Origin: Oribacterium sp. NK2B42
GTDB taxonomy: Bacteria; Bacillota; Clostridia; Lachnospirales; Lachnospiraceae
Direction: 5' to 3'
Length of the DNA: 50,425 nucleotides
Assembly (NCBI RefSeq): GCF_000424445.1
Contig: NZ_AUJX01000032.1
Location: 1-50,425, forward strand
Under the pieces are notes generated by a model. The model saw only the letters and a program-made list of their open reading frames with translations, ran no database searches and had not been told where the DNA came from. Each line of letters opens with the position of its first letter. Within the stretch, counting starts at the first letter, position 1. Below, in pieces: positions 1-36,542 of the stretch. The translations under genes and the position numbers were made by a program.

Positions 1-346
1 CATCCATTTCCCCACAGGGTGGATACGCAACCTAGCGGCTTATACAGGTATAGCCTGAGGCTCCCAACCAGCCAAAACATAAATCACCACCGAATGGACT
101 GACAGACTTTGTTCGAGGTATCACCAACCGAAGTTGGCTCCCAAGGAGGAACCGTCAATGATCCTGCCTCGATGATTATATACCTTTTGATCTGTCTGGA
201 GTATATGGGAGCTACAGACATGTATAACTGTTAGTTAAGCTCCTTGATGATATCTGATGAGAGGGGAATCCTCCCTTCAATCATTACTTAGATTTGGAAA
301 TTGAAACTATTAACTGTAGTCCTTAATGACTACATCATTACTATAC
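1..346. mobile_element. End of an unidentified inserted element, non-coding and highly structured
   Basis: No credible ORF lies here. The asnB reading frame stops abruptly at the junction near 344-347, so this is foreign DNA inserted in asnB. It is rich in hairpins. GTAGTC/GACTAC around a 6-nt loop sits at about 317-335, some 12 nt from the junction. ACCAAC-CGAA-GTTGG(C)T lies near 122-137, GGAGCT/AGCTCC near 209-243, and GAGGGG/CCTCCC near 261-276. A folded, ORF-free element end of this size with a hairpin just inside the boundary fits an IS200/IS605-type right end carrying a TnpB-guide (omega) RNA read on the plus strand, with asnB as flanking guide. A 5' omega-RNA of an IscB-type element on the minus strand is also possible. 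I see no tnpB or iscB coding sequence in the window, no group II intron domain V and no GUGYG start. The element identity is therefore inference. Confidence 0.5.
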
Positions 347-1591
347 TAGGAGGTATTTTCCCTTGTTATAGGTGTTGAGCTTTTTTTCGGGATCGATATG
401 CATCACATAGTCTGCAAATGCCAGATCGCCGAAAGGTACACGGGCCTCCAGGGAGTTTACGCTGATGCAGCGGTCTGCACGAAGAACATCGTACATATGG
501 AGCTCACGGACACGCTTTTCCGCTTCTTTTTGGAATTCCTCAGCAGAAGGGGCAAAGTCTGTGTATTTGTAGCCGAAAAGCTCGTCTGAAATCTCACCGG
601 TGAGAAGCACACGGATGTCGGACTGCTCATGGATAGCCTTACAAAGGAGATACATACCTATGGAAGCTCTGACGGTTGTGATATCGTAGGTTCCAAGGGC
701 TTCAATAACAGACTCGATGGCATTTATAACATCATTACGGTTGATTATCACTTCGTGGTGGTTCGAGCCGATGTAATCCGCAACTTCTCTTGCGTACTTA
801 AGGTCGATGGCGTCAATGTCCATACCTATGGCATAGGTTTCAATGGGCTTGTTCAGAAGCTTTGCGGAAATAGCGCAAACTAGAGAAGAGTCGAGACCTC
901 CGGAAAGCAGGAAACCGACAGGAGCATCCGCTTCGAGACGCTTCTCTACACCCTTTATAAGAAGGTCATGAATGTTTTTTGAGATGGCATCAAGATCATC
1001 CTGCTTATTATATTTATTTACTTTGGAAACATCATAGTAGCAAATGAATTCGCCGTCCTTGTAGTAGTGTCCCGGCGGGAATGGCTTAACTTCATGGCAA
1101 AGCCCCACAAGGTTTTTGGGCTCGGAAGCGAAGGAGAGAACACCGTCTGTGGTTTCTCCATAGTAAAGGGGACGGATTCCGAAGGGATCCCTTCCTGCGA
1201 TGTAGGAGCCGGTTTCTGCATCATAGATAACCATGGCAAACTCTGCATCCAGCATTCGGAACATATCTGTTCCAAACTCTTTATAAAGAGGCAGAAGGAT
1301 CTCGCAGTCGGAATCTGACTTGAAGGTGTAACCCTTCTTTATAAGCATTTCCCTTAATTTGCGGAAACCGTAGATTTCTCCGTTACATACAATGAAGGAA
1401 CCATCCAGCTCAAAAGGCTGCATGCCGGCATCATTGAGTCCCATGATAGAAAGTCGATTAAAGCCAAGGAAACCATTACCTGTGTCGATGATCCTTGAGG
1501 CATCAGGCCCTCTGGACGTAGTTTTAAGAAGCGCAGTTTTTACAACCTCATACTGTGCGCGCTTATCACAGAAACCAATGATACTACACAT
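341..1591 (-). pseudogene. asnB: Asparagine synthase (glutamine-hydrolysing), C-terminally truncated by insertion
   Basis: AsnB converts aspartate, glutamine and ATP to asparagine. The N-terminal glutamine amidotransferase class II domain (about residues 2-185) starts with MCSIIGF, whose Cys2 is the nucleophile after Met removal. The synthetase domain has the ATP pyrophosphatase loop SGGLDSS at 230-236. The frame ends at residue 416 with NKGKYLLV and a stop. In the family, KYLL is followed by roughly another hundred residues that complete the synthetase domain, so the protein is cut by the element to its left and is probably inactive. The start is supported by CAGGAG nine bases upstream. It is transcribed from a promoter at 1740-1768 through a terminator-bearing leader. 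Divergent from dapL. Confidence 0.88.
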
Positions 1592-1681
1592 ATGCTGATA
1601 CTCCTGAATAATAGTAATAGGTTAAAAGTCCCTGGTATTATTACCACAACAATGTTGACTTCAGGGGACTTACAAAACAAA

Positions 1682-1733
1682 AAAGGCGGCAAAGATCCCG
1701 GTGATTAAACCGACATCTTTGCCGTCTTTATGG
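1682..1733 (-). promoter_or_regulatory. asnB leader: terminator with competing ANTAR-type hexaloop hairpin
   Basis: Read on the minus strand, the leader starts about at 1733. An intrinsic terminator is formed by CGGCAAAGAU (5' arm) with AUCUUUGCCG, followed by a run of U. The 5' arm can alternatively fold as CGGC-AAAGAU-GUCG (plus-strand 1711-1724), a 4-bp stem with a hexaloop having A1 and G4. The two folds exclude each other. A second small hairpin CGGU-UUAAUC-ACCG follows directly but lacks A1/G4. Known ANTAR proteins of the EutV type bind hexaloops with A1 and G4 and prevent termination. The assignment rests on that rule and on three sister leaders. Confidence 0.72.
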
Positions 1734-1739
1734 TTAGTG

Positions 1740-1768
1740 ATTATTGCGCAGTACATAATAAATGTCAA
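1740..1768 (-). promoter_or_regulatory. Sigma-70 promoter of asnB
   Basis: On the minus strand, TTGACA (plus 1763-1768) and AATAAT (plus 1740-1745) are separated by 17 bases. Transcription would start near 1733, immediately before the regulatory hairpin. Confidence 0.75.
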
Positions 1769-1784
1769 GGAAAAAATAAGAAGA

Positions 1785-1824
1785 CCACGGGGAGGGTTCT
1801 CGCCGGTGAAAACTCTCCCCGGTG
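1785..1824. repeat. GC-rich imperfect palindrome (GGGGAGGG...CTCCCC family)
   Basis: This inverted repeat is centred on CTCGCCGGTGAAA and lies between the divergent asnB and dapL promoters. It is a close relative of the near-perfect palindrome at 49070-49115, which has GGGGACGGTTCT and its complement. It has no U-tract and is likely a dispersed intergenic repeat. Confidence 0.6.
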
Positions 1825-1885
1825 TTTCTTCAGGTGGATTTCTCGGTGGAATAGCTTATATGAAATTTTGCAATCCGAAATATTC

Positions 1886-1913
1886 TTGACAAGCTATTTG
1901 TGTCTCGTATAAT
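1886..1913 (+). promoter_or_regulatory. Sigma-70 promoter of dapL
   Basis: TTGACA (1886-1891) and TATAAT (1908-1913) are 16 bases apart. The predicted start at about 1919-1921 places the regulatory hairpin at the very 5' end of the transcript, the same geometry as in asnB. Confidence 0.8.
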
Positions 1914-1918
1914 GATGA

Positions 1919-1969
1919 CAAAGGACAACGGCGTCCCGGTTATGATACCAGGGGTGTGTTGTCCTTTTT
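1919..1969 (+). promoter_or_regulatory. dapL leader: terminator with competing ANTAR-type hexaloop hairpin
   Basis: The terminator is AAGGACAAC (1921-1929) paired with GTTGTCCTT (1958-1966) plus T-tract. The alternative hairpin is GGAC-AACGGC-GUCC (1923-1936), whose hexaloop has A1 and G4. A second small hairpin GGU-UAUGAU-ACC (1938-1949) has G4 but not A1. After the T-tract comes a block TATAAGTC (1974-1981) that recurs in the glnN leader and, slightly changed, in the pyrG and asnB leaders. The leader then runs to the RBS near 2043. Confidence 0.75.
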
Positions 1970-2056
1970 AAATGTATAAGTCAGGCATTGCAAGAGCGAA
2001 AGCCGGGCAATATGCGGTACTTATGCGGCATTAACAAAATTACAGGAGCATTCATA

Positions 2057-3259
2057 ATGTCTGCAAATATAAATGAGAACTATTTAAAACTTAACGAGAG
2101 CTATCTTTTTTCTGAGATCGCAAGGCGCATCCGTACCTGGCAGGAATCAAATCCTGAGGTTTCAGATAAGCTTATCCGCATGGGAATCGGAGATGTGACG
2201 AGACCTCTTCCTAAAACTGTAGTTAATGCTATGGTGGAGGCAGCCAGGGAAATGGGAGAGCCGGAGACCTTCAGAGGTTACGGACCGGAACAGGGATATG
2301 ATTTCCTTAAGGAAGCTATCAGAAATTACTATACAAAATTTGGAGTGGAACTTAATCCTGACGAAATATTCATTTCCGACGGTGCAAAGTCAGACCTTGG
2401 CAACATACTGGATCTTTTCGATAAAGACAATACTGTCCTTGTTACAGATCCTGTTTATCCGGTATATGTAGACACCAACATGATGGACGGAAGAAAGATA
2501 ATCCTTGCAATGTCTTCAGAGGACAATGGCTTCCTCCCGCTTCCGGCACCTGAATACAAGGCAGACATCATTTACCTCTGCAGCCCCAACAATCCGACAG
2601 GTGCGGTTTATGACAGAGAAGGACTCCGGAAATGGGTTGATTTCGCAAGAGAGAATGATTCCGTAATCCTGTTTGATGCAGCCTATGAATGCTTTATCAC
2701 CGGTGACTACCCTCACAGCATTTACGAGATTCCGGGAGCAAGAGACGTAGCCATAGAGTTTTGCAGCCTTTCAAAGAAAGCAGGTTTCACCGGGACAAGA
2801 TGCGGTTATACTGTGGTTCCCGATACCCTTACAAGAGGTGAAGGAAATCTCAATAAAATGTGGCTCCGCAGGCAGACTACAAAGTTTAACGGCGTAAGCT
2901 ATATCATCCAGAGAGGCGCAGAGGCTGTATTCTCAAAGGATGGTGAAAAAGAAATCGAAGAAAATATCAGGTATTATCGTGATAATGCAAAAATTATTAC
3001 AGATACCATGGACAAACTTGGCATTTACTACACCGGCGGCAAAAATTCTCCATATATATGGTTAAAGTGTCCGGGAAATATGGACGGTTGGGACTTCTTT
3101 GACAGGCTCCTTAAAGAAGCTTACGTAGTCGGAACCCCCGGCGCCGGCTTCGGAAAATCCGGAGAGAACTTTTTCAGACTTACGGCATTCTCTACACATG
3201 AGAATACAAAGGAAGCCATGGACAGATTCGAGAAATTTGTCGGTGGGATAATGTTTTAA
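2057..3259 (+). CDS. dapL: LL-diaminopimelate aminotransferase
   Basis: This PLP enzyme converts tetrahydrodipicolinate and glutamate to LL-diaminopimelate in one step, giving lysine and a peptidoglycan precursor. It is about 400 aa, normal for the family. A fold-type I aminotransferase is shown by the [15 protein letters not shown] region, [11 protein letters not shown], and [15 protein letters not shown] with the PLP-binding lysine. The start at 2057 (MSANINENY) is chosen for CAGGAG upstream; an earlier in-frame ATG at 1988 lies inside the regulated leader. Its place among glutamine/glutamate genes and the shared leader imply nitrogen control, which is sensible because glutamate is the amino donor. 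Cytosolic. Confidence 0.9.
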
Positions 3260-3286
3260 CAATTAAATAATCAACTTAATAACAAA

Positions 3287-3336
3287 AGAGGACAATGGCG
3301 TTCGGTTATATAAAACTGTGTCACTGTCCTCTTTTT
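3287..3336 (+). promoter_or_regulatory. glnN leader: terminator with competing ANTAR-type hexaloop hairpin
   Basis: Terminator AGAGGACA (3287-3294) pairs with TGTCCTCT (3325-3332) plus T-tract. The competing hairpin is GGAC-AAUGGC-GUUC (3290-3303), with A1 and G4 in the loop. A following hairpin CGGUU-AUAUAA-AACUG has A1 but not G4. A weak promoter candidate lies just before it (TTAACA at 3256-3261, TAATAA near 3277). ATATAAGTCCGG follows the T-tract, as in dapL. Confidence 0.75.
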
Positions 3337-3429
3337 CGTTATATATAAGTCCGGTATCGGGCAGCTTTTAAACCTTAGGGAATGCCTGAGAGGATGATCA
3401 TATATGTTTACAATGAGGGAGGAGAAGTT

Positions 3430-5538
3430 ATGAGTACATCTACAATTTCTGACATTTACGGAAGCCTTGTATTTAACGACAAGATAATGAGGGAGAGACT
3501 TCCTAAGGATATTTATAAGGCTGTTCACAAGACCATACAGAATGGTTCACATCTTGAAATAGATGTAGCCAATACTGTTGCCGCAACCATGAAGGAGTGG
3601 GCATTGGAAATGGGAGCTACCCATTTTACTCACTGGTTCCAGCCTATGACAGGACTCACAGCTGAGAAGCATGACAGTTTCATTACCCCTACCTCAGACG
3701 GAGGAGTACTTCTGGAGTTCTCCGGCAAGGAGCTTGTAAAGGGTGAGCCGGATGCATCATCCTTCCCTTCAGGAGGCTTGAGAGCTACCTTTGAGGCAAG
3801 AGGATATACTGCATGGGATCCTTCTTCTCCTGCATTTATAAAGGACGGAACACTGTACATACCGACAGCATTCTGCGCATACACAGGTGAAGCTCTCGAC
3901 AAGAAGACTCCGCTTCTCAGATCCATGGAGACTTTAAGTGAATCTGCCACAAAGCTTCTTCATGTTCTCGGAAAAACAGGAGTTACAAGAGTTGACACGA
4001 CTGTTGGTTCAGAGCAGGAATATTTCCTTATCGACAAGGATCTCTACAAGGAGAGAGAAGACCTTCTTCTTACAGGACGTACACTTATCGGTGCACCTGC
4101 TCCAAAGGGACAGGAAATGGAGGATCATTATTTCGGAGTTCTGAAGCCAAAGGTTTCAGCATTCATGCATGACCTTGATGAGGAGCTCTGGAAACTGGGT
4201 ATCCCGGCAAAGACCAAGCATAACGAGGTTGCACCTTCACAGCATGAGCTTGCACCTGTATTTGAGACTGCAAACATTGCAGTTGACCATAACCAGCTTA
4301 CCATGGAGATGATGAAGAAGGTTGCCGACAAGCACAATTTCGCATGTCTACTTCACGAAAAGCCATTTGAGGGAATCAACGGCTCCGGTAAGCACAACAA
4401 CTGGTCAATGATCACATCAGAGGGCGAGAACCTTCTGGATCCCGGCAAGAACCCTGAGAAGAACACTCAGTTCCTGCTTTTCCTTGCTGCAATTATCAAG
4501 GCTATCGATGAGTATCAGGATATCATGAGAGTGTCCGTTGCTTCTGCCGGTAATGATCACAGACTTGGCGCAAACGAAGCACCTCCGGCTATCGTTTCCG
4601 TTTATGTAGGTGATGCCCTCGAGAGGGTACTTGAATCCATCGAAAATGGTGAGGCTGATTTCAAGTCGGATGCTGCAGCCCAGATGGAAACAGGTGCACA
4701 CGTACTTCCTCATTTCAGAAAGGACAACACCGACCGTAACAGAACATCGCCTTTCGCATTTACAGGAAACAAGTTCGAGTTCCGTATGCCCGGTTCCTCA
4801 CTTTCAGTTGCAGACCCTAACATCGTCCTTAATACCGCTGTTGCCGAGGCTATCGATCAGATTGCAGACAGACTTTCAGGAACAGCACCTGAGAACATCG
4901 AGGAAGAGGCCGGAAAGCTTATTAAGGAACTCATTGAGGAGCACAGAAGAATAGTATTTAATGGAAACGGCTACACAGACGAGTGGGTAGAGGAAGCCGA
5001 GAGGAGAGGTCTCTTTAACCTTAAGTCACTTCCGGAAGCTATGCCGAGACTTATTGCCGAGAAGAACAAACAGCTCTTCATAAAGCATCATGTATTTACC
5101 GAATCCGAGATAGATTCAAGATATGAGATATTCCTTGAGAACTACGCAAAGACCATCCGTATCGAGGCTTTGACCATGCTTGAGATGGTTAAGAAGGATT
5201 TTACAGAGGGACTTCTCAAATATCAGACAGAGGTTACAGCTACTGCACTTTCCAAGAAACAGCTGCTTTCAGATGCAGTCTGCTCTATTGAAACAGGCAT
5301 CCTTGCAAAGCTTGATGCAGAGGCAGTTGAGATAAGCAAGGGCATAGAGAAACTGGAAAAAGACCTTCACTTTACAGAGGGACTCGGGGACAGCCTTTCA
5401 CAGGCAAGAGCTTACCATGACAAGGTACTGAGCGACATGGAGGAGCTTAGAGCACATGTTGACCATGCAGAAAGCATGATCCCTGAGAGCTGCCTGCCAT
5501 ATCCGACCTATTCAAAGCTTCTTTTCTCATTGAGATAA
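3430..5538 (+). CDS. glnN: Glutamine synthetase type III
   Basis: Makes glutamine from glutamate, ammonia and ATP; cytosolic. Length is about 702 aa, typical of the large GSIII family, which is unrelated in length to the 440-aa type I enzyme. Recognisable GSIII signatures are HWFQPMTG, EKHDSF, the glutamate-binding region with SEQEYFLID, NEVAPSQHELAP, HEKPFEGINGSGKHNNWS, and NRTSPFAFTGNKFEFR. The start at 3430 (MSTSTIS) has an excellent GGAGGAG upstream; an upstream in-frame ATG at 3382 lies in the leader. Preceded by an ANTAR-type antitermination leader and followed by gltB, so glutamine synthesis and glutamate synthase are adjacent. Confidence 0.95.
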   Translation: MSTSTISDIYGSLVFNDKIMRERLPKDIYKAVHKTIQNGSHLEIDVANTVAATMKEWALEMGATHFTHWFQPMTGLTAEKHDSFITPTSDGGVLLEFSGKELVKGEPDASSFPSGGLRATFEARGYTAWDPSSPAFIKDGTLYIPTAFCAYTGEALDKKTPLLRSMETLSESATKLLHVLGKTGVTRVDTTVGSEQEYFLIDKDLYKEREDLLLTGRTLIGAPAPKGQEMEDHYFGVLKPKVSAFMHDLDEELWKLGIPAKTKHNEVAPSQHELAPVFETANIAVDHNQLTMEMMKKVADKHNFACLLHEKPFEGINGSGKHNNWSMITSEGENLLDPGKNPEKNTQFLLFLAAIIKAIDEYQDIMRVSVASAGNDHRLGANEAPPAIVSVYVGDALERVLESIENGEADFKSDAAAQMETGAHVLPHFRKDNTDRNRTSPFAFTGNKFEFRMPGSSLSVADPNIVLNTAVAEAIDQIADRLSGTAPENIEEEAGKLIKELIEEHRRIVFNGNGYTDEWVEEAERRGLFNLKSLPEAMPRLIAEKNKQLFIKHHVFTESEIDSRYEIFLENYAKTIRIEALTMLEMVKKDFTEGLLKYQTEVTATALSKKQLLSDAVCSIETGILAKLDAEAVEISKGIEKLEKDLHFTEGLGDSLSQARAYHDKVLSDMEELRAHVDHAESMIPESCLPYPTYSKLLFSLR

Positions 5539-5559
5539 GAACATACATAAGACAAAGAT

Positions 5560-5635
5560 TTCCTGCATAGCTGCAGGGCAGATCCTGCAGGAGTGGATGC
5601 CTGCCTACGACTTGTTTTTTGATCGTGGGCGGTAT
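5560..5635 (+). promoter_or_regulatory. Structured gltB leader, two hairpins, function unknown
   Basis: Two strong hairpins lie between glnN and gltB. The first is CTGCAGG-GCAGAT-CCTGCAG at about 5571-5590; its six-base loop has G at position 4 but G rather than A at position 1. The second is GCCTACGA with TCGTGGGC across a 12-nt loop at about 5603-5630. Neither is followed by a T-tract, so no terminator is visible. It may be part of glnN 3' processing or of gltB control. Confidence 0.4.
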
Positions 5636-5737
5636 CATTCCTGCTTGATTTGTACTATAGGACTTTTATTCCTTAGTGATATGGGAAAAGTGATGAACAG
5701 ATATATCTTGAAGGTGTTAATCATCAAATGGGTTGGC

Positions 5738-5785
5738 GTGGCAGCTATTAAGGTTTAAATAGCAGCGTTAACAGATGAGGAGAAT
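5738..5785 (+). repeat. Partial copy of the leader-located dispersed repeat
   Basis: GGCAGCTATTAAGGTTTAAATAG...GTTAACAGAT-AGGAG matches 33534-33572 almost base for base over 40 nt. The copy sits directly over the gltB RBS, as the other copies sit directly over theirs. Confidence 0.5.
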
Positions 5786-5789
5786 AAAA

Positions 5790-8700
5790 ATGGAGAATTA
5801 TCAAAATACAAATCAGGAGGCCGCCAATGTAACTGCCGGTAACTGCTTCATAGTTCCGGAAGAACTCCGCGGCCACAACACATTATGGAGACCGGTTTCC
5901 TCAGGACACCCTGAGGAGCTCGGCAACGATGCCTGCGGAATAGGAACCGTTGTAAACATTGACGGTACAAAGGACGGAAAGGTTCTTGATGATGCCCTTC
6001 ATATAGTAGAAAAGCTGGAGCATCGTGCCGGAAAGGATGCCACAGGTAAGGTGGGAGACGGTGTAGGTATACTTCTCCAGATAAGTCATGATTTCTTTAA
6101 AAAGGCAGCACAGGAAGCCGGAATCGTGCTTAGAGAAGAAAGAGATTACGGCGTTGGAATGTTCTTTTTCCCTGAGAATGAAAAGAAGAGAACCTTCGCA
6201 AAAAGGATGTTTGAAGTCATCGCAAAAAAGAACGGGCTCACGGTCCTTGGCTGGAGACCGGTTCCCTCGCATCCCGAGATTCTGGGAAAGATAGCATTGG
6301 ACTGCATGCCCTGTATAGAGCAGTGCTTCATTGAAAGACCTGGGGGAGTGGAGAGAGGCATTGATTTTGACAGAAGATTATATGTTCAGAGACGTGAGTT
6401 CGAGCAGTCCTCTGAGGACACCTATATCTGTTCTCTGAGCTCCAGAACCATCGTATATAAGGGAATGTTTCTGGTGGGACAGCTTCGTGCTTTCTATGAT
6501 GATCTGAGGGATCCCGATTACAAGACTGCCATAGCCATCGTTCACTCTAGATTCTCAACAAATACAACTCCCAGCTGGGATCGTGCCCACCCCTACCGCA
6601 TGCTTGCCCATAACGGAGAGATCAATACCATCAAGGGAAACATTGACAGGATGCTGGCCCGTGAAGAAACCATGCAGAGTCCCTTCCTTGACAAGGAGGT
6701 TGAGAAGATATTCCCGGTGGTGGAGCGAAACGGTTCCGATTCCTCCATGCTGGACAATACTTTGGAATTCATGTATATGAACGGTATGGAGCTTCCTCTT
6801 GCCATGACTGTGACCATTCCCGAGCCCTGGAAGCATAACAGGTTTATGGATCATGAGAAGAGGGATTTCTATCATTACTATGCCACCATGATGGAGCCCT
6901 GGGACGGTCCCGCAGCCATCATTTTTTCCGACGGGGATGTGGTGGGAGCAACCCTTGACAGAAACGGTCTGAGACCCTCGAGATACTACATCACCGACGA
7001 TAACAGACTGATCCTTGCCTCTGAAGTGGGAGTTCTTGACATTGACTCAAAGCATATCGTAGATAAGTCAAGACTTCAGCCCGGGCGTATGCTCCTTGTG
7101 GATACCAGACAGAAAAGGATAGTATCGGATTCCGAGATAAAGAAGCATTATGCCGAGAAGAATCCTTACGGAGAGTGGCTTGACAGAAATCTTCTGCATC
7201 TTGAGGATATCAGGATCCCTAACCACAAGGTGGAAACCCATGACAGGGAGCAGAGAGACAAGCTTTACAAGGCTTTTGGATATACTCATGAGGATGTGAA
7301 GTCCATAATCCTTCCCATGGCGCAGAATGGTGTGGAGGATACGGCCTCCATGGGACATGACACGCCTCTTGCGGTGCTTGACAATAAACATCAGCTTTTG
7401 TTCAGATACTTTAAGCAGCTTTTTGCCCAGGTTACAAATCCGCCCATCGATTCACTTCGTGAAAAAGTGGTTACGGATACTACAGTTTATCTTGGTTCTG
7501 ACGGAAATCTCCTTCAGGAAAAGGCGGAGAACTGCCGGGTTCTGGAGATAACAAATCCTATTCTTACGGGAGTAGAGCTTTTGAAGATAAAAGAGCTTTC
7601 AGCTCCTGGCTTCAAGTCAGCTGTTGTGTCGCTGCTTTACTACCAGAATACTTCTCTTGAAAGAGCCCTCCAGCAGTTAAATATCACTGTGGACCGTGCC
7701 TATCAGAGAGGCTGCAACATTATCATCCTCAGTGACAGGGGAGTTGATGAAAACCACGTTGCCATCCCTTCGCTGCTTGCTGTGAGCTCCGTCGAGCAGC
7801 ATCTGGTGCTTACAAAGAAGAGGACTGCGGTTTCCCTGATACTTGAGTCCGCAGAGCCGAGAGACGTTCATCAGTTTGCGGCGATCCTTGGCTTTGGCGC
7901 CCGTGCCATCAATCCATATCTCGCACATGAGTGTATAGCCGAGATCATCGATGAAGGATATCTCGACAAGGACACACATACCGCTATCGAAGACTACAAC
8001 AAGGCGGTCCTCCACGGCATAGTAAAGATTTCGGCGAAGATGGGTATATCCACCATCCAGTCCTACCAGTCGGCGAAGATATTTGAAGCCATCGGGCTTA
8101 GCCGTGAGTTTACGGACAAGTATTTTACAGGCACTGTTTCAAGGGTAGGAGGCATCGGCATAAAAGAAATATCCGAAGGCGTAAACTGGAGGCATGAGCT
8201 GGCCTTTGATCCTCTGGGACTCAATGGGGCAGATGGGGATGAGTCAATGTTTTACAGTGTACCCGCCCTTAAGAATAGGAAGATCTCTTTAGAGGCTTCC
8301 GGGGAGGAAAATGAAAAGCTTCAGAAGCTGAGGATGGCAAATTTCTGCAATGTTAAAGATAAGGATGAACACCTTTATACTCCAAAGACCATAAAGGCAC
8401 TGCAGCAGGCAGTGCAGAAGGGGGACTACAAGAGGTTTAAGGAATACAGCGCCATGATAGATGATGCACCTATTCCCCATGCCCTTCGAGGCATCATGGA
8501 ATTCGCTCCGAAGAATAAGCCGGTTCCTCTCAGTGAGGTTGAGCCGGTGGAGTCCATCGTGAAGCGTTTCAAGACAGGTGCAATGTCTTACGGCTCCATA
8601 TCTCTGGAAGCCCATGAGACTATGGCCGTTGCCATGAACCGCCTTGGCGGAAAGTCAAATTCGGGCGAAGGCGGAGAGGATCCTTCAAGATACGGAACAG

Positions 8701-10511
8701 AGAGGAATTCTGCCATAAAGCAGGTGGCCTCGGGACGTTTCGGCGTTACGGGATCCTATCTTAATTCCGCAAGTGAGATACAGATAAAGATGGCTCAGGG
8801 CGCAAAGCCGGGCGAAGGCGGACATCTTCCGGGAAAGAAGGTTTACCCCTGGATCGCAAAGACCAGATTTTCAACTCCCGGTGTATCCCTGATCTCACCG
8901 CCGCCTCATCACGATATCTACAGTATCGAGGATCTGGCGCAGCTTATTTATGATCTTAAGAATGCAAACCGCCGTGCAAGGATTTCGGTGAAGCTGGTTT
9001 CCGAAAACGGCGTAGGAACCATCGCCTGCGGTGTTGCCAAGGCAGGTGCCCAGGTCATCCTGATCTCTGGTTATGACGGAGGAACCGGTGCGGCCCCCAT
9101 GACTTCCATTCATCATGCGGGACTTCCCTGGGAGCTGGGAATCACTGAGGCTCACCAGACACTTATCCGTAACGGACTTCGCAACAGGGTAATGCTGGAG
9201 ACGGATGGTAAGCTTATGACCGGTCGTGATGTTGCCATCGCAGCACTTCTCGGTGCCGAGGAGTACGGCTTTGCCACAACGGCTCTTGTGAGCATGGGAT
9301 GTATGATGATGAGAGTCTGTCATAAAGATACCTGCCCCTTCGGAGTTGCCACCCAGAACGACAGGCTTCGTGCAAAGTTCAGGGGCAAGCCGGAGTATGT
9401 TATGAACTTCATGAGGTTTATAGCAGAGGAGCTTCGGGAAATCATGGCAGAGCTTGGCTTCAGAACTGTGCAGGAGATGGTTGGACGTACCGACTGCCTG
9501 ACTTTTTCCGAGGAGCGTGCCAATGTTACCGACCGTGCCAAAAAGGTTGATCTTTCAGCCATACTCGATCCTGAGTTTGCAAGTCTTCCCGAGAATGTAC
9601 GTCATTTTGATCCGGAACATGTTTACGATTTCCATCTGGAGAAGACATTGGACGAAGACGTGCTCCTGCCTAAGTTTAAGGGGGCTCTAGAGAAGGGTGA
9701 GCATCACGAGGAGAAGGTCAAGGTTTCAAGTACAAACCGTACCTTCGGAACCATCCTGGGCTCTGAGATCACCGACAACTACTGGATGGGCACAAAGACA
9801 CAGGAGCTTCAGGATGACACTTTTGTGGTTGAAGCCTACGGCGGCGGAGGACAGTCCTTCGGTGCCTTCATTCCCAAGGGGCTCACCATCAGACTTCACG
9901 GTGATGCAAATGACGGCTTCGGAAAGGGACTGAGCGGCGGAAAGCTGATCGTGACACCGCCTAAAGGAAGGGCTTTCCGTCCGTCCGAAAACATTATCAT
10001 CGGTAACGTGGCGCTTTATGGCGCTACTTCCGGAAAGTGTTATGTTGAAGGTATAGCCGGAGAACGTTTCTGCGTGAGAAACTCCGGAGCTACTGCGGTG
10101 GCTGAGGGCTGCGGAGACCACGGTCTTGAGTACATGACCGGCGGCCGGGCAGTTATCCTCGGACACACCGGAAAGAATTTTGCGGCAGGTATGTCCGGTG
10201 GTATCGCCTATGTTCTTGATGAAGATCATTCACTGTATCTGAAGCTCAACAAGGACATGGTGCAGCTCCGGGAGGTGACGGAAAGATATGACGTGAAGGA
10301 ACTTAAGGCCATACTTAAGGACTATGTTCAGGAGACCGGCTCCGAGCTTGGAAAGGATATACTTGAGAACTTCGACAGATTCCTTCCGAGCTTCAAGAAG
10401 ATAGTTCCGAACGATTACCAGAAGGTGCAGGACGCTGTAAATCATTTTGAGGACAGCGGTTCATCACCCCAGGATGCGGAAATGGAAGCCTTTAAGCTGC
10501 TGTTTAGCTAA
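5790..10511 (+). CDS. gltB: Glutamate synthase, large subunit
   Basis: Transfers the glutamine amide to 2-oxoglutarate, giving two glutamates. About 1573 aa. An N-terminal propeptide of about 48 residues precedes NDACGIGTVVN, whose Cys49 would become the N-terminal Ntn amidotransferase nucleophile after processing. The FMN/2-oxoglutarate barrel includes GAMSYGSISLEAHE, GGKSNSGEGGEDP and GYDGGTGAAP. A 3Fe-4S cluster motif has Cys at about 1171, 1177 and 1182. The C-terminal GXGXG beta-helix has repeated gly-rich turns. The start at 5790 has AGGAG seven bases upstream; ATG 5775 overlaps that RBS and is less likely. No gltD is adjacent, so the electron donor is either a GltD encoded elsewhere or ferredoxin. 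A copy of the leader-type repeat lies right upstream. Confidence 0.95.
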   Translation: MENYQNTNQEAANVTAGNCFIVPEELRGHNTLWRPVSSGHPEELGNDACGIGTVVNIDGTKDGKVLDDALHIVEKLEHRAGKDATGKVGDGVGILLQISHDFFKKAAQEAGIVLREERDYGVGMFFFPENEKKRTFAKRMFEVIAKKNGLTVLGWRPVPSHPEILGKIALDCMPCIEQCFIERPGGVERGIDFDRRLYVQRREFEQSSEDTYICSLSSRTIVYKGMFLVGQLRAFYDDLRDPDYKTAIAIVHSRFSTNTTPSWDRAHPYRMLAHNGEINTIKGNIDRMLAREETMQSPFLDKEVEKIFPVVERNGSDSSMLDNTLEFMYMNGMELPLAMTVTIPEPWKHNRFMDHEKRDFYHYYATMMEPWDGPAAIIFSDGDVVGATLDRNGLRPSRYYITDDNRLILASEVGVLDIDSKHIVDKSRLQPGRMLLVDTRQKRIVSDSEIKKHYAEKNPYGEWLDRNLLHLEDIRIPNHKVETHDREQRDKLYKAFGYTHEDVKSIILPMAQNGVEDTASMGHDTPLAVLDNKHQLLFRYFKQLFAQVTNPPIDSLREKVVTDTTVYLGSDGNLLQEKAENCRVLEITNPILTGVELLKIKELSAPGFKSAVVSLLYYQNTSLERALQQLNITVDRAYQRGCNIIILSDRGVDENHVAIPSLLAVSSVEQHLVLTKKRTAVSLILESAEPRDVHQFAAILGFGARAINPYLAHECIAEIIDEGYLDKDTHTAIEDYNKAVLHGIVKISAKMGISTIQSYQSAKIFEAIGLSREFTDKYFTGTVSRVGGIGIKEISEGVNWRHELAFDPLGLNGADGDESMFYSVPALKNRKISLEASGEENEKLQKLRMANFCNVKDKDEHLYTPKTIKALQQAVQKGDYKRFKEYSAMIDDAPIPHALRGIMEFAPKNKPVPLSEVEPVESIVKRFKTGAMSYGSISLEAHETMAVAMNRLGGKSNSGEGGEDPSRYGTERNSAIKQVASGRFGVTGSYLNSASEIQIKMAQGAKPGEGGHLPGKKVYPWIAKTRFSTPGVSLISPPPHHDIYSIEDLAQLIYDLKNANRRARISVKLVSENGVGTIACGVAKAGAQVILISGYDGGTGAAPMTSIHHAGLPWELGITEAHQTLIRNGLRNRVMLETDGKLMTGRDVAIAALLGAEEYGFATTALVSMGCMMMRVCHKDTCPFGVATQNDRLRAKFRGKPEYVMNFMRFIAEELREIMAELGFRTVQEMVGRTDCLTFSEERANVTDRAKKVDLSAILDPEFASLPENVRHFDPEHVYDFHLEKTLDEDVLLPKFKGALEKGEHHEEKVKVSSTNRTFGTILGSEITDNYWMGTKTQELQDDTFVVEAYGGGGQSFGAFIPKGLTIRLHGDANDGFGKGLSGGKLIVTPPKGRAFRPSENIIIGNVALYGATSGKCYVEGIAGERFCVRNSGATAVAEGCGDHGLEYMTGGRAVILGHTGKNFAAGMSGGIAYVLDEDHSLYLKLNKDMVQLREVTERYDVKELKAILKDYVQETGSELGKDILENFDRFLPSFKKIVPNDYQKVQDAVNHFEDSGSSPQDAEMEAFKLLFS

Positions 10512-10552
10512 AGGGCTGAACTGAGGAGGGGTATAGGGGAGGTCAGACCTTT

Positions 10553-10817
10553 TCTGAATGACCTATATCTCCAAAAACAGAATATGAGTCAATGAAGAAC
10601 CTGATTCTGAATGACCTATATCTCCAAAAACAGAATATGAGTCAATGAAGAACCTGATTCTGAATGACCTATATTCCAAAAAAACAGAATATGAGTCAAT
10701 GAAGAACCTGATTTTGAATGACCTATATTCCAAAAAACAGAATATGAGTCAATGAAGATCTTGATTCTATATGACCTATATCTCTAAAAACAAATTATAG
10801 GTCAAGGAGCGACCGAT
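10553..10817. repeat. Five tandem ~53-bp hairpin repeats
   Basis: Units lie at 10553-10605, 10606-10658, 10659-10712, 10713-10765 and 10766-10817. The first two units are identical over most of their length and the last is the most diverged. Each unit contains TGACCTATAT and a near-complement ATATGAGTCA (ATTATAGGTCA in the last), so each can fold as a hairpin with one mismatch. There are no unique spacers, so it is not a CRISPR. It fills the gltB-pyrG gap and is AT-rich without a T-tract. Confidence 0.85.
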
Positions 10818-10865
10818 TTATAAACCTAAAATAAATAGTAAAAACCCTATTTACAAATTCCTGTT

Positions 10866-10896
10866 TTGATTGTATCATCTTCATGTTTTTTATAAA
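10866..10896 (+). promoter_or_regulatory. Candidate promoter of pyrG
   Basis: TTGATT (10866-10871) and TTATAA/TATAAA (10890-10896) are 18-19 bases apart, placed just upstream of the regulatory hairpin as in dapL. Confidence 0.45.
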
Positions 10897-10901
10897 TATC
10901 A

Positions 10902-10964
10902 GGAGGTGACAAGGGCGTCACGGGGGCAATGGAAAGTGTCCCCGCCACTGTCACCTCTTTTTTT
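10902..10964 (+). promoter_or_regulatory. pyrG leader: terminator with competing ANTAR-type hexaloop hairpin
   Basis: Terminator AGGTGACA (10904-10911) pairs with TGTCACCT (10949-10956), followed by a long T-tract. The competing hairpin is GUGAC-AAGGGC-GUCAC (10906-10921), a perfect 5-bp stem with a hexaloop having A1 and G4. GTATAAATCCG follows the T-tract, like the block after the dapL and glnN terminators. The remaining leader runs to 11072 and contains GC-rich short hairpins (for example GCGTAAGCGTAAGCG) that I cannot assign. Confidence 0.72.
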
Positions 10965-11072
10965 GTGTATAAATCCGAATCTGAGATTTCCAGGCATTGT
11001 GTGAGCTTGGTATTGCGTAAGCGTAAGCGGAGAAATGCGTGGATTTATGCTTGTATTATGAAAGGGGACTCT

Positions 11073-12680
11073 ATGATCAAGTACATTTTTGTAACCGGCG
11101 GTGTAGTTTCAGGACTCGGAAAGGGCATTACTGCAGCTTCTCTTGGAAGGCTTCTCAAGGCAAGGGGCTACAAGGCAACCATGCAGAAATTTGATCCATA
11201 CATAAACATTGACCCGGGTACCATGAACCCCATCCAGCATGGTGAGGTTTTTGTAACCGATGATGGTACCGAGACGGATCTTGATCTCGGTCACTATGAG
11301 CGTTTCATTGACGAGTCCCTGGATCACCGTTCCAATATAACCTCCGGAAAGGTTTACTGGTCTGTTCTCAACAAGGAGCGTCACGGAGAGTACGAAGGCC
11401 ACACAGTTCAGGTCATCCCTCACATCACAAATGAAATAAAGTCCGATTTCTATCGCTCAACAGATCCTTCCGAGGACCGCATTGCCATCATTGAGGTAGG
11501 CGGCACAGTGGGAGATATCGAGTCCCAGCCCTTCCTTGAGGCCATCCGTCAGTTCCAGCATGATATCGGACGTGAAAATGCCATCATGATACACGTGACT
11601 CTCGTACCATATCTTCATGCCTCCGAGGAGCTTAAGACAAAGCCCACACAGATGAGCGTTCGTGAGCTTCAGCGTCTCGGACTTCAGCCGGACATCCTTG
11701 TATGCCGCACCGAGTATCCGATCCCCAAGGACATCAGAGAGAAGATCGGTATGTTCTGTAACGTACCTTCAAATCACGTGCTTCAGAGCACAAATGCCGA
11801 GTTTATTTACGAGGTTCCCCTTCTCATGGAGCGTGAGCACCTTGCACAGTCAGTGTGCGAATGTCTACACCTCCCATGCCCCGAACCGGACCTTACTTCC
11901 TGGAGGGCAATGGTAGAGAATCTTCGCCATCCTGAAAAGGAAACCGTCATTGCCATCGTCGGCAAGTACACACAGCTTCACGATGCCTACCTTTCCGTTG
12001 CGGAATCCCTGAAGCACGGTGCCATCGCGAATAATGCAAAGGTAAACATCCGCTGGGTGGATTCCGAAGAGGTTGAAAAGGAGGGAGCAGCCACTTTATT
12101 AAAGGGGGTTAACGGCATCCTCATCCCGGGCGGGTTCGGTCAGCGCGGAATCGAAGGCATGATTATGTCGGCGCAGTATGCCCGTGAGAATAAGATACCT
12201 TATCTCGGAATCTGTCTCGGAATGCAGATCTCCATCATAGAATTTGCCAGAAATGTTCTTGGCTGGAAGGATGCAGACTCCACGGAATTTCAGCCGGAGA
12301 CCACACATCCTGTCATCGATCTTATGCCTGAACAGAAAACAGTCACAGACCTTGGAGGAACCATGCGTCTCGGATCCTATCCCTGTGAGCTGAGAGCGGG
12401 TTCAAAGTCGGAAAGACTTTACGGAACCACCTCCATAACCGAGCGTCACAGACACAGATATGAAGTTAACAATGATTACAGGGAAGATCTGGAATCAGCA
12501 GGAATGATGCTGGTCGGACAGTCTCCGGACGGCCATATAGTTGAGATGATCGAACTTAAGGAGCATCCCTATTTTGTTGCTACCCAGGCACACCCTGAAT
12601 TTAAATCACGACCCAATAAAGCACACCCTCTTTTCAGGGGACTTATTGAGGCTGCATTAAAAAATCAGGAGAACATCTGA
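11073..12680 (+). CDS. pyrG: CTP synthase
   Basis: Aminates UTP to CTP using glutamine and ATP; forms a cytosolic tetramer. About 535 aa, usual length. The N-terminal amidoligase domain begins [18 protein letters not shown] with its P-loop and continues with [13 protein letters not shown] and [10 protein letters not shown]. The C-terminal class I glutaminase has GGFGQRG, the nucleophile Cys381 in GICLGMQ, and HPEF near the end. The start at 11073 is supported by AAAGGGG upstream; the frame is open back to 10929 but that part is the regulatory leader. As a glutamine consumer it fits the common leader control. Confidence 0.95.
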
Positions 12681-12691
12681 AAGTAACAGAT

Positions 12692-12771
12692 CAGCTGATG
12701 GACCACCGACCCCGTCCCCAAGGTGCGACACAAAATGGATCACCGACCCCGTCCCCATGGTCCGTCGGCTG
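12692..12771. repeat. Long hairpin repeat between pyrG and glnA (GACCCCGTCCCC family)
   Basis: CAGCTGATGGACCA (12692-12705) pairs over 14 bp, allowing G-U, with TGGTCCGTCGGCTG (12758-12771). Inside are two direct copies of CACCGACCCCGTCCCC. Relatives in reverse orientation lie at 14848-14916. It can act as a weak terminator for pyrG, but no clear T-tract follows. The segment up to glnA shows no ANTAR-type hexaloop. Confidence 0.6.
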
Positions 12772-12856
12772 GCAGTATTTTAAGAAAAGCGAGTTTACTG
12801 CAATGAATTTCAGTAATAAAATATTCAGTACTTATGAAAAATTCGAGGTGGAAAAA

Positions 12857-14071
12857 ATGAATTCATACGAAGAGGTTCTTGAATTTGTCGAAGACGAAAA
12901 TGTCAAATTTATCAGACTCGCATATTTTGATGTATTTGGAGTTCAGAAGAATATAGCTATAATGCCAGACGAGCTCAGGAGGGCATTTTCCGAAGGTATA
13001 AGCATTGACGCAAGCTCCGTAGCGGGCTTCGGTGCAGAGGTTCACTCAGATCTTTTCCTGAGACCGGATCCCACGACTCTTTCCATAGTTCCCTGGAGAC
13101 CCATAGACGGAAGAGTTGCAAAAATGTTCTGCGACATAGAGTATCCGGATGGCAGCACATTCCAGAGAGACAGCCGCTGGCTCCTGAAGCAGGCAGTAAG
13201 AATGGCCGAAGATAAAGGATTCATAATAAACATTGGCACAGAGGTGGAGTTTTACATCTTCAAGCTTGATGAAAATGGTAATCCCACCAAGATACCTCAG
13301 GATAATGCAGGCTACATGGATATAGCGCCTGAGGATCACGGTGAGAACATCCGGAGAGAAATAAGCTTTGCCCTGGTTGACATGGGTATCAGACCCGAGG
13401 CCAGCCACCACGAAATGGGTCCGGGACAGAATGAAGTGGATTTCCGTTATGCAGAGCCTCTTGAGGCTGCGGATAATGCCTCTACCTTCAAGTGGGTGGT
13501 AAAGTCCATAGCGAATTCGGATGGCGTTTGGGCAGATTTCAGTCCGAAGCCCCTTACCAACGAGCCGGGAAACGGTATGCATATAAACATTTCCGTAAGA
13601 TCCAGGGACGGTAAGGATTATACCGATAACTTTATGGCGGGCATACTTGAACATATTCGTGAAATCACTCTTTTTCTCAATCCAAAAAGAGAGAGCTACG
13701 AGAGACTGGGAGATATGAAGGCGCCAAAGTATGTAAGCTGGTCAGCCGAAAACCGTTCACAGCTTATCCGTATCCCTGCCACAAGATCAGATCAAAAGAG
13801 AATTGAGCTCAGATCACCGGATCCCACTGCAAATCCTTATCTTGCGTTTATGCTCCTTATATACGCAGGAATCGACGGCATTGAGAGAAAGCTTGAGCCA
13901 ATGGAGCCTTTGGATGTAAATCTCTTTAAGGCAGACACTTCCATCACCGATAAACTGAAGAGACTGCCACAGTCCCTTGATGAAGCCATCGCCTATGCAA
14001 GAAACTCGGAATTTGTAAGAACACTTATTCCGGAAGGATATCTCGCAGCATATTCCGGTGAGGAAGTCTAG
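12857..14071 (+). CDS. glnA: Glutamine synthetase type I-like, short form
   Basis: A second glutamine synthetase in the block. Type I hallmarks are beta-Grasp FIRLAYFDVFGVQKNIAIM, EVEFYIF, HHEMGPGQNEVDFRY, TNEPGNGMHINIS, AENRSQLIRIPA, and RIELRSPDPTANPYLAF. At about 404 aa it is some 35-40 residues shorter than usual GlnA: after LPQSLDEAIAYARNSEF it ends at GEEV and lacks the usual ExxEWxxY...W tail. The usual DGSSI loop reads DASSVAGFG, and no adenylylation-site Tyr loop is present. The start at 12857 is supported by GAGGTGG upstream; an earlier in-frame ATG at 12698 lies in repeat DNA. Activity is likely but specificity could be altered, for example a glutamine-synthetase-like ligase. Confidence 0.82.
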   Translation: MNSYEEVLEFVEDENVKFIRLAYFDVFGVQKNIAIMPDELRRAFSEGISIDASSVAGFGAEVHSDLFLRPDPTTLSIVPWRPIDGRVAKMFCDIEYPDGSTFQRDSRWLLKQAVRMAEDKGFIINIGTEVEFYIFKLDENGNPTKIPQDNAGYMDIAPEDHGENIRREISFALVDMGIRPEASHHEMGPGQNEVDFRYAEPLEAADNASTFKWVVKSIANSDGVWADFSPKPLTNEPGNGMHINISVRSRDGKDYTDNFMAGILEHIREITLFLNPKRESYERLGDMKAPKYVSWSAENRSQLIRIPATRSDQKRIELRSPDPTANPYLAFMLLIYAGIDGIERKLEPMEPLDVNLFKADTSITDKLKRLPQSLDEAIAYARNSEFVRTLIPEGYLAAYSGEEV

Positions 14072-14085
14072 AATTTATATTTGGT

Positions 14086-14109
14086 GATGCCAATGGCGGC
14101 ATAGGCATC
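14086..14109 (+). promoter_or_regulatory. ANTAR-type hexaloop hairpin in the leader of the ANTAR gene
   Basis: AUGCC-AAUGGC-GGCAU (14087-14102) is a perfect 5-bp stem with exactly the hexaloop found before glnN. A competing stem GATGCC (14086-14091) with GGCATC (14104-14109) overlaps it. No clear U-tract terminator follows before 14230, although CCGG-rich hairpins lie at 14130-14170. It suggests autoregulation, or coupling to glnA read-through. Confidence 0.55.
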
Positions 14110-14229
14110 TAAGTTGAAACTCCCGGAGTCAGGACCGGGGAATGAGAAGTCCGGAATCATATTTCGGGCGTATGAACTGATAGTTTTAGGATTCTTGGTA
14201 CTGCAAAAGTATCGTTTAGGGAGATTAAC

Positions 14230-14832
14230 ATGGAGAGAGCAGAAAAAGGGAGCAGTTTGCTGATTGCGGCTGCCATGGAAAAAGTGGCGACTCAGATCAA
14301 AGGGATCCTGCCCTCGGGATTTGGCAAGTTGTCATATCAGCCGTCCATGACAAAGGTTAAGCAAAAGCTTATGGAGGAGAGTTTTGATTTATTGATCATT
14401 TATACTCCTCTTCCTGATGAGTTTGGTCTTCAGGCTGCACTGGAAATCGCAGCAAAATATCAGGCCATGAGTATACTGATGCTTGTAAACAAAGATGTTT
14501 ACCAGGAGGTTCTTTACCGGTCAGGAGATTCAGGCATCATGGTTATGGCGAGACCTGTAAATCCGGCATTGTTCACATCATCAGTAGAGATGCTTTGCAC
14601 GGTAAGTCGTAAAGTGCAAAGGATTTTAAATGATAATCAGAAGCTGCAGCGAAAGCTTGAAGATGAGAGATATGTGACCAGGGCCAAATGCCTGCTTATC
14701 GAAAGATGCGGCATGACAGAACCCGAGGCTCATAAATATCTGGAAAAAGAGGCCATGAATGCCTCCATCACAAGAAGAGAGGCTGCAATCAGAGTCATCC
14801 GTGAAAACGGAAGGATAGTTACAAATATGTAA
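14230..14832 (+). CDS. ANTAR-domain RNA-binding antitermination regulator with degenerate receiver
   Basis: 200 aa. The N-terminal half is a receiver-like domain. Where receivers have the phospho-acceptor Asp after a hydrophobic strand, this protein reads FDLLIIYTPLP, with no Asp at that place, so phosphorylation control is unlikely. A short coiled coil (about 125-145) leads into the C-terminal three-helix ANTAR domain (about 145-195), with AKCLLIERCGMTEPEAHKYL and a basic helix ITRREAAIRVI. Known ANTAR proteins bind hexaloop RNA hairpins and stop transcription termination. Placed at the end of the nitrogen block whose leaders carry such hairpins, this is the obvious regulator of that block. 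The start ATG 14230 follows GGGAG. Confidence 0.88.
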   Translation: MERAEKGSSLLIAAAMEKVATQIKGILPSGFGKLSYQPSMTKVKQKLMEESFDLLIIYTPLPDEFGLQAALEIAAKYQAMSILMLVNKDVYQEVLYRSGDSGIMVMARPVNPALFTSSVEMLCTVSRKVQRILNDNQKLQRKLEDERYVTRAKCLLIERCGMTEPEAHKYLEKEAMNASITRREAAIRVIRENGRIVTNM

Positions 14833-14847
14833 AATTTCGGCCGAAGG

Positions 14848-14916
14848 ATCAGTGGGACGGAGTTAGTGGTTTATCGGTAGATGGACCAAGGGGACGGAGT
14901 CAGTGGTCCACCGGCT
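14848..14916. repeat. GGGACGGAGT(C/T)AGTGGT repeats
   Basis: Two direct copies (about 14853-14871 and 14891-14911) of a motif that is the reverse complement of CCACCGACCCCGTCCCC at 12700-12757. The second can fold as GGACCA with TGGTCC. Dispersed repeat family downstream of the ANTAR gene. Confidence 0.55.
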
Positions 14917-14956
14917 GAACTGAAAGAATAACTGATATAGAGAAAATGATATTGTG

Positions 14957-15001
14957 AAAAAAGCGTTTGTTCCTTAAAATTGTTGGAACAGACGCTTTTT
15001 T
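14957..15001 (+). terminator. Intrinsic terminator abutting the MATE gene RBS
   Basis: AAAAAGCGTTTGTTCC pairs with GGAACAGACGCTTTTTT. The T-tract ends three bases before GAGGT, the apparent RBS of the next gene. Confidence 0.9.
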
Positions 15002-15013
15002 GAGGTAGACAAC

Positions 15014-36259: not shown

Positions 36260-36369
36260 GTTATATGTAAGGCGGCTATGCATAGGACATGTACCTTCGC
36301 CTGGCTGCATCAGACTTAAGAAGTTGATATTACTAAGATTTCTAAATAACATACATAGAATTGCTTATG

Positions 36370-36403
36370 AAAAGGAGGGTTGATTTTAAACCCTCCTTTT
36401 GTT
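36370..36403 (+). terminator. Intrinsic terminator
   Basis: AAAAGGAGGGTT pairs with AACCCTCCTTTT. TTATACT just after it may be a -10 for guaB. Confidence 0.88.
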
Positions 36404-36542
36404 ATACTCGTTAAAATTTTAAAACAAATACCCATTCATAACCTGGATCCAAGTCCTTCAAGGGGAAAAGGACCTTTTAAACAGACAGAGTGACATATTG
36501 AAAAGTGTCAACGATTGTTTTTATTTTGAAAGGAGATTTCCG

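Follow-up and report, generated by a model that had tools for sequence, protein, structure and literature searches.

The window studied here, the whole 50,425-nucleotide stretch of Oribacterium sp. NK2B42 DNA that forms contig 26 of a 3.79-Mb genome (NZ_AUJX01000032.1), carries a block of glutamine-related genes in the order asnB (minus strand), dapL, glnN, gltB, pyrG, a GlnA-like gene and a gene for an ANTAR protein. We propose, with a probability of roughly 0.8, that this one ANTAR protein antiterminates asnB, dapL, glnN and pyrG, and via the operon also the GlnA-like and ANTAR genes, at a single hexaloop hairpin in each leader. The sites, the exclusive folds, their conservation and covariation, the lack of an upstream hexaloop with A in its first and G in its fourth position (A1/G4), the predicted promoter position of asnB and dapL and the missing phospho-acceptor of the protein can be read in the sequence itself; RNA binding, action as a dimer, antitermination, the start sites and the direction of the signal are what we infer. 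By default the leader would fold as a strong terminator that engulfs the 5' arm and loop of the hairpin. A free ANTAR dimer would grip the hexaloop as soon as the nascent 5' end appears and, being bound there, would keep the 5' arm occupied and let the polymerase pass. Recruitment and antitermination, tasks that P1 and P2 share out in the classical motif, would then both fall to one hairpin, and the layout would be a simpler version of the known two-hairpin switch. The analysis supports leaders that work like ANTAR antitermination but depart from the dual-hairpin definition.

Hexaloop hairpins opposed to terminators in four leaders

Both strands were scanned for hairpins with a six-base loop, of whatever letters, that sit within the 5' arm of an intrinsic terminator, and in all scan sets only matches scoring at least 20 and spanning up to 85 nucleotides (nt) were counted. 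The window gave four matches in its 50,425 bases, ahead of asnB, dapL, glnN and pyrG, all four with A1/G4; a looser scan also returned matches with other loops, whose terminator scores were all 20.0 or less. On the minus strand, the asnB hairpin CGGC(AAAGAT)GTCG (1711..1724) is opposed to a terminator at 1682..1729 and follows by 15 nt the -10 box of a predicted promoter at 1740..1768 (-35 TTGACA at 1763-1768, 17-nt spacer, -10 AATAAT at 1740-1745). The other three leaders lie on the plus strand. The dapL hairpin GGAC(AACGGC)GTCC (1923..1936), a predicted RNA 5' end, has its terminator at 1920..1969 and a predicted promoter at 1886..1913 (TTGACA 1886-1891, TATAAT 1908-1913) that ends 9 nt ahead of the hairpin arm. 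The glnN hairpin GGAC(AATGGC)GTTC (3290..3303) faces a terminator at 3284..3338, and the pyrG hairpin GTGAC(AAGGGC)GTCAC (10906..10921) one at 10901..10962, with a promoter-like site at 10850..10878 (TTTACA 10850-10855, TATCAT 10873-10878) 28 nt ahead of the TGAC arm. All four terminators were obtained by both scan and folding. The first-pass annotation of this DNA had described these A1/G4 hairpins and had noted that their 5' arm and loop double as the terminator 5' arm; all four are present as described, each with a C-G closing pair, and the two folds exclude each other in every leader.

Over 31 Oribacterium leaders the free energy of the hexaloop hairpin averages -3.5 kcal/mol (-6.1 to -1.1) and that of the minimum-energy, terminator fold -29.4 kcal/mol (-41.5 to -20.8). 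Termination would be the default and the hairpin would need help. A fifth hairpin, ATGCC(AATGGC)GGCAT (14087..14102, plus strand), ahead of the ANTAR gene had been counted as a further leader. Its sequence exists, but we found neither a T tract nor a terminator with it, and it occurs in 3/12 glnA-ANTAR spacers inspected (the window, L015 and L016; L and G numbers are our labels for loci and genomes), so that we count four attenuators and one unsupported hairpin instead of five leaders.

Conservation and covariation of both folds

The motif stands ahead of asnB in 9/9, of dapL in 9/10, of glnN in 10/11 and of pyrG in 3/3 leaders inspected (31/33 in all), and pyrG leaders carrying it were found on separate contigs in four more species. 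It was not found in the dapL leader of L024 or in the glnN leader of L026; a TTGG(AGCGGC)CCAG ahead of glnN in L026 and off-site matches ahead of asnB in the window and of glnN in L025 were not counted. The membership of dapL and pyrG, which had seemed unusual when the leaders were first noticed, is borne out by these counts, and for pyrG also by three leaders in loci outside the congener set.

The alignment of 31 Oribacterium leaders comprises only leaders already showing the motif. Its core 5' arm differs by gene (CGGC, GGAC, GGGC or TGAC) with both pairing partners varying along, and the four core stem positions pair in the hairpin as well as in the terminator in 31/31 rows. Cells changed on both sides number 16 in the hairpin (shuffled mean 5.9) and 75 in the terminator (shuffled mean 26.2), values reached in 0/500 shuffles each, and sliding the partner along the alignment lowered the covariation score in every case. 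As the rows are related, this covariation is not evidence of independent events. At the third core position an arm G meets a C of the terminator in 13/13 rows and a U of the hairpin in 12/13, and thus the hairpin stays weak. Failure of the hexaloop stems to covary among homologous leaders had been named beforehand as a result that would speak against the regulon; across the 31 leaders covariation was found.

These data also bear on whether such hairpins arise by chance in ordinary terminators that end upstream transcripts. Terminators and small hairpins are common, and the glnN and pyrG leaders do follow other genes. Against this stand the A1/G4 loops of 4/4 nested matches in the window, the strong predicted promoters directly upstream of the asnB and dapL sites and the covariation of both alternative pairings; on the last two grounds ordinary terminators were rejected, and we give this explanation hardly any weight.

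Enrichment of A1/G4 hexaloops at ANTAR loci

The share of A1/G4 among nested hexaloops was 22/31 in twelve congener loci and 12/23 around glnA-type ANTAR genes of 20 other Lachnospiraceae, compared with 4/25 in the comparison loci (weak-class ANTAR 1/13, eutB 2/8, eutP/pduV 1/4). Window, congeners and Lachnospiraceae together give 38/58 versus 4/25 (Fisher p 3.6e-5). The C-G closing pair was present in 21/22 A1/G4 matches of the congeners, 11/12 of the Lachnospiraceae and 15/17 of more distant loci. These 51 matches of the three wider sets include chance-like ones (e.g. GGTGGAT in L024, L067, L076) and two that overlap within one L147 leader, and the locus sets L038-L106 and L136-L155 overlap by at least two loci (L038 = L136, L052 = L140).

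Gene linkage alone is no proof of regulation, and the attenuators might be run by some other regulator, be it a different RNA-binding protein, an RNA that binds a ligand, or control by the nascent chain. This is very unlikely, given that the A1/G4 hexaloop is the ANTAR signature published in the parts of PMC3369931 used here, that no Rfam family reached its gathering score in the window, and that, as just described, the motif is overrepresented near glnA-type ANTAR genes, with p 0.039 when distant loci are included. The Rfam candidates in 1-2100 were only miRNA models (E 0.6-0.94) and were discarded. Separately, a weak-class (not glnA-type) ANTAR locus, L169, holds near 8077 a single A1/G4 hexaloop ahead of a terminator, 33 nt past a TTGACA box and 10 nt past TAAGAT.

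One hairpin instead of two

PMC3369931 describes the ANTAR motif as two hairpins whose loops both carry A1/G4 and of which the second (P2) overlaps the terminator, and the amiE leader is likewise presented there as dual-hairpin. An A1/G4 hexaloop (stem of at least 3 pairs) within 30 nt upstream of the hairpin was found in 0/31 leaders; the same test recovered P1 in 3/3 controls, the tandem motifs L255, L257 and L265, which were hand-picked as leader-like out of the ten tandem pairs seen among 30 eutP/pduV loci from the phylum. The 15 eutB loci of Lachnospiraceae, taken as another dual-hairpin control, yielded no clear dual leader. On the downstream side the best second hairpin, searched with loops of 3-8 nt, had an A1/G4 hexaloop in 0/31 leaders, and the classical pair of tandem A1/G4 hairpins with a short linker was not found in these leaders. 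The claim that only the first hairpin obeys the rule needs a correction: the terminator-overlapping hairpin of the published eutP motif is P2, so that the upstream partner is missing here as much as the downstream one.

We regard it as unlikely that these are classical dual motifs whose second site, the small hairpin before the 3' arm of the terminator, merely departs from the A1/G4 rule. In 31/31 leaders a further small hairpin of at least 3 base pairs can be drawn, a looser test (stem of at least 4, G-U allowed) finds a possible downstream A1/G4 hexaloop in 3/22 Oribacterium matches (L020, L022, L023), and the terminator of the eut control L255 overlaps with the first hexaloop and has another A1/G4 hexaloop in its loop. 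However, the loops of the drawn hairpins measure 4 (10 leaders), 7 (7), 3 (6), 8 (5), 6 (2) and 5 (1) nt and none is an A1/G4 hexaloop; their length and letters differ between orthologues, none of the three looser candidates is common to orthologues, and most minimum-energy folds absorb the second hairpin as the apical stem of the terminator.

Single-hexaloop antitermination is further suggested by the promoters. The -10 box ends 14-16 nt ahead of the arm in 9/9 asnB leaders and 9-11 nt ahead of it in 9/9 dapL leaders. At the usual distance between a -10 box and the start site, these RNAs would start within about 10 bases of the hairpin, with no room for a second one, and the asnB and dapL transcripts should open with the hairpin. 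In the wider sets a promoter-like site (score at least 9 of a maximum of 12.5, -10 within 20 nt of the hairpin) accompanies 14/22 A1/G4 matches in congeners, 8/12 in Lachnospiraceae and 6/17 in distant loci, and 0/9, 0/11 and 7/66 matches with other loops in the same three sets. Outside the congener set most glnN sites, as well as those of gltB and asnB, have a promoter-like -10 no more than 20 nt away; the pyrG sites do not. As far as can be told from sequence, the 5'-terminal layout recurs ahead of glnN, gltB and asnB in other Clostridia.

Members of the putative regulon and presence of the ANTAR gene

The only PF03861 match in the genome is the ANTAR gene of the window (57.6 and 54.2 bits, cut-off 27.3), and the protein is present in 13/17 congeners, the window genome included. 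From 31 of these leaders we derived a leader model, R1, and counted its matches at E <= 1, with opposite strands of one site taken separately. It gave 5-10 matches in each of 12 genomes with a close ANTAR homologue; among the ANTAR-less congeners it gave none in G001, G002 and G003 and one at E 0.007 in G009, a match whose printed sequence shows no such hexaloop. R1 also recovers pyrG leaders left out of its building, and in the window it matches the leaders of asnB (1678-1732, minus strand, E 2.2e-10) and, on the plus strand, of dapL (6.8e-11), glnN (7.3e-12) and pyrG (9.5e-08), all of them training rows. One more match in the same genome, G000:C59:12059, is a symmetrical terminator without a hexaloop and was set aside. 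Weak R1 matches are also seen in the window at 14956-15003 and 36366-36405.

In the four ANTAR-less congeners no asnB match was found at 1e-50 and no pyrG match at 1e-5, a level at which G000 and G013 match as positive controls; each of the four has one copy of the type III glutamine synthetase (GSIII), 51-53% identical, without such a leader. Covariation, conservation and linkage to the only ANTAR gene lend good support to the original proposal that the linked protein controls this block. A role of that protein in its own expression had also been suggested. By way of the fifth hairpin this finds no support; the gene order makes control through an operon leader likelier. The glnA-type gene followed by the ANTAR gene stands behind dapL in 10/12 congener loci, so that the dapL leader would govern the ANTAR gene too, and in the window and L015 the pair stands behind pyrG, again downstream of a motif leader.

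Outside the congener set, 18 of 29 A1/G4 matches have a reference gene downstream, namely glnN (8), gltB (4, from 3 leaders), pyrG (3), asnB (1) or glnA (2, one of them 943 nt off), while the remaining 11 have none of the seven reference genes within 1,200 nt. Leaders resembling A1/G4 hexaloop leaders were also seen in single congeners ahead of genes that the printed sequence alone identifies as an amino-acid permease (L209), an amino-acid ABC transporter (L211) and an 870-aa protein (L222). No relative of the ANTAR protein was found on viral contigs.

Weighing the single-hexaloop reading

Several results weigh against one ANTAR protein acting at one hexaloop. Pairs changed on both sides did no better than shuffles (201/500 and 109/500), nor did further pair types (268/500 and 122/500). 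The A1/G4 enrichment is weak in the 69 more distant loci (17/83), and pooling the four ANTAR-linked sets gives 55/141 versus 4/25 in the comparison loci. The matches of R1 are partly its own training rows. In G016 the ANTAR homologue is 30% identical and only two weak R1 matches occur (0.10-0.17); its asnB leader has TAAGAC(AAGGGC)GTCTTG opposed to a terminator, and no pyrG match was found in that genome at 1e-5. As neither asnB nor pyrG is matched in the ANTAR-less congeners, the co-occurrence with the ANTAR gene is module-level and not a matter of leader loss alone. With regard to position, pyrG leaves about 20 nt of possible RNA ahead of its hairpin, without a hexaloop there, in the three pyrG leaders outside the congener set the promoter-like site is further than 20 nt away (26, 55 and 69 nt), and the best promoter score of glnN is 9 of 12.5 or less in 10/10 leaders. 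The 51 A1/G4 matches of the wider sets include one upstream candidate hexaloop (L068) and six downstream ones (L020, L022, L023, L048, L068, L147), three of the six being Oribacterium leaders. Finally, EutV is stated in PMC3369931, in the parts covered, to require both hairpins in vivo.

The 2022 structure paper on EutV (PMC8934654) describes, in its passages used here, one hexaloop as the minimal binding unit and contact with both hairpins as needed for antitermination, and leaves the role of a single hexaloop open. The leaders reported here appear to be a natural family for which a single hexaloop suffices, and with short, well-defined RNAs of this kind the question becomes open to a direct test. 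A search that requires two hairpins, as does the published covariance search, should miss such leaders. The literature base consisted of parts of PMC3369931, PMC3369936, PMC8934654, PMC8164766, PMC4676874, PMC6316151 and PMC6759348. Among the titles and abstract openings listed by searches of open-access literature, with subscription papers mostly outside, we recognised none on single-hexaloop 5'-terminal ANTAR leaders and none on a degenerate glutamine synthetase (GS) paired with an ANTAR protein.

The ANTAR protein and its GlnA-like neighbour

The ANTAR gene (14230..14832, plus strand) encodes a pseudo-receiver, a long helix and an ANTAR domain, and the predicted structure (mean predicted local distance difference test score 89) likewise shows a receiver-like part, a long helix and an ANTAR bundle. 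The first Foldseek match of this model is Rv1626 (template modelling score, TM, 0.55) and the second is RNA-bound EutV, 6ww6_B (TM 0.78, root-mean-square deviation 2.9). The phosphorylatable Asp of the receiver is absent, the aligned position being Y, H, C, F or N in 13/13 proteins. If, as we read it, the numbering of the chain and that of the paper differ by two residues, the Met at the hexaloop is kept (EutV M172 corresponds to M176, invariant in the 13), the EutV contacts K143 and K147 align with R147 and R151 and N173 with N177, R168 is replaced by E172 with a basic residue beside it, and R175 and R177 are replaced by S179 and T181.

A GlnA-like gene lies directly upstream of the ANTAR gene in 86/89 loci outside the congener set, two loci being counted twice. 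In Clostridium saccharobutylicum, too, nitR presumably adjoins glnA. The GlnA-like protein of the window (12857..14071, plus strand) reaches 350.6 bits where TIGR00653, the curated model of type I GS, sets its cut-off at 429.15, and has Lys for the flap Glu. The 97 linked GlnA proteins (93 distinct cores) were aligned with solved type I enzymes, using the customary residue numbers (R62, E304/E327, D50, S53) and ligand names. In 97/97 the catalytic flap is one residue shorter and the GQHE histidine is lost, no protein has Arg opposite R62, and the flap glutamate position holds Lys in 53, Glu in 26 and other residues in 18. All six ligands are kept in 78/97, one or more being lost in 19/97. In each of five genomes the linked GlnA-like protein is the only type I match, and the three of these that were searched for it (G000, G013, G016) also have a type III match.

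The receiver without a phospho-acceptor and the adjoining degenerate GS gene suggest a pseudo-GS that senses glutamine. Tentatively, and at slightly under even odds, the degenerate GS (fold kept, flap shortened, glutamate mostly lost, feedback residue lost) and the pseudo-receiver ANTAR protein would form one sensor that, depending on glutamine, retains the dimer or frees it for antitermination at a single 5'-terminal hexaloop, a switch that would be widespread in clostridia. If the GlnA-like protein does act as a non-enzymatic sensor, this would account for the way in which nitrogen status reaches ANTAR proteins that have no phospho-acceptor. In the family of the host, 345/396 sampled genomes have some ANTAR relative at E <= 0.001. 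With regard to the sensor question only, it is quite conceivable, though we would not favour it, that the linked GlnA is a working type I GS and the ANTAR protein is controlled otherwise. The intact set of six metal and substrate ligands in most proteins and the flap Glu of the 26 fit an enzyme, and the review passage on C. saccharobutylicum NitR is silent on a pseudo-GS. The absence of the flap Glu in 71/97, the flap shortening and GQHE histidine loss throughout, the missing Arg at R62, the ligand losses, the score of the window protein under the curated GlnA cut-off and its kind being the only type I match in each of five genomes, with a type III match in the three searched, argue against it.

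As in the EutV/EutW system of Enterococcus faecalis, in the parts of PMC3369931 and PMC8934654 covered, the protein combines a receiver, a coiled coil and an ANTAR domain, the hairpin has an A1/G4 hexaloop and excludes an intrinsic terminator, and the model of the window protein comes near RNA-bound EutV. In contrast to the two hexaloops and the ethanolamine genes of that system, there is here one hexaloop, predicted at or near the RNA 5' end, glutamine-related genes and an ANTAR protein without the phospho-acceptor Asp. NitR of C. saccharobutylicum (Stutz et al. 2007) induces GS/GOGAT (glutamate synthase) genes upon nitrogen limitation, as summarised in passages of the reviews PMC6316151 and PMC4676874; an ANTAR protein is common to both, and leaders with the motif precede glnN here and glnN and gltB outside the congener set, as putative targets. 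An antisense RNA is reported there, and asnB, dapL and pyrG are additional members here. In the GS-TnrA pair of Bacillus subtilis, as treated in part of PMC6316151, GS senses nitrogen and binds a regulator, a role like the one proposed here, but that regulator is a DNA-binding factor which GS obstructs; in the present case the GS-like protein seems degenerate and the regulator would bind RNA. The system described here further shares a pseudo-receiver ANTAR protein (AmiR) with AmiC-AmiR of Pseudomonas, and would share an ANTAR protein (NasT) held by a ligand-binding partner with NasS-NasT, the proposed partner differing from both in being a degenerate glutamine synthetase.

Gene block and neighbouring sequence

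Oribacterium and other Lachnospiraceae are the nearest named relatives among the best 80 of 208 relatives. The asnB gene (341..1591, minus strand, 416 aa) departs from the family sequence past residue 415, and the relative L016 has 528 aa; as bases 1-360 of the window have no counterpart in the fetched loci, asnB seems interrupted near the contig end. On the plus strand follow dapL (2057..3259), encoding LL-diaminopimelate aminotransferase (TIGR03542 over its cut-off), glnN (3430..5538), encoding a type III glutamine synthetase with GSIII_N and Gln-synt_C-ter domains and one of two such genes in the genome, gltB (5775..10511), encoding the glutamate synthase large subunit (NF008730), and pyrG (11073..12680), encoding CTP synthase (NF003792 and TIGR00337 over cut-off). 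The hexaloop/terminator scan found no A1/G4 leader of its own for gltB in the window. Between gltB and the pyrG promoter-like site, a 53-bp unit is repeated in tandem at 10552-10845 (4.5 copies, 93% matches). Repeats of GACYCCGTCCCC lie at 12708-12756 and 14890-14901, on either side of the glnA-ANTAR pair, in three exact copies of which the last is inverted; with the pair standing behind dapL in most congener loci, they are possibly a trace of its relocation.

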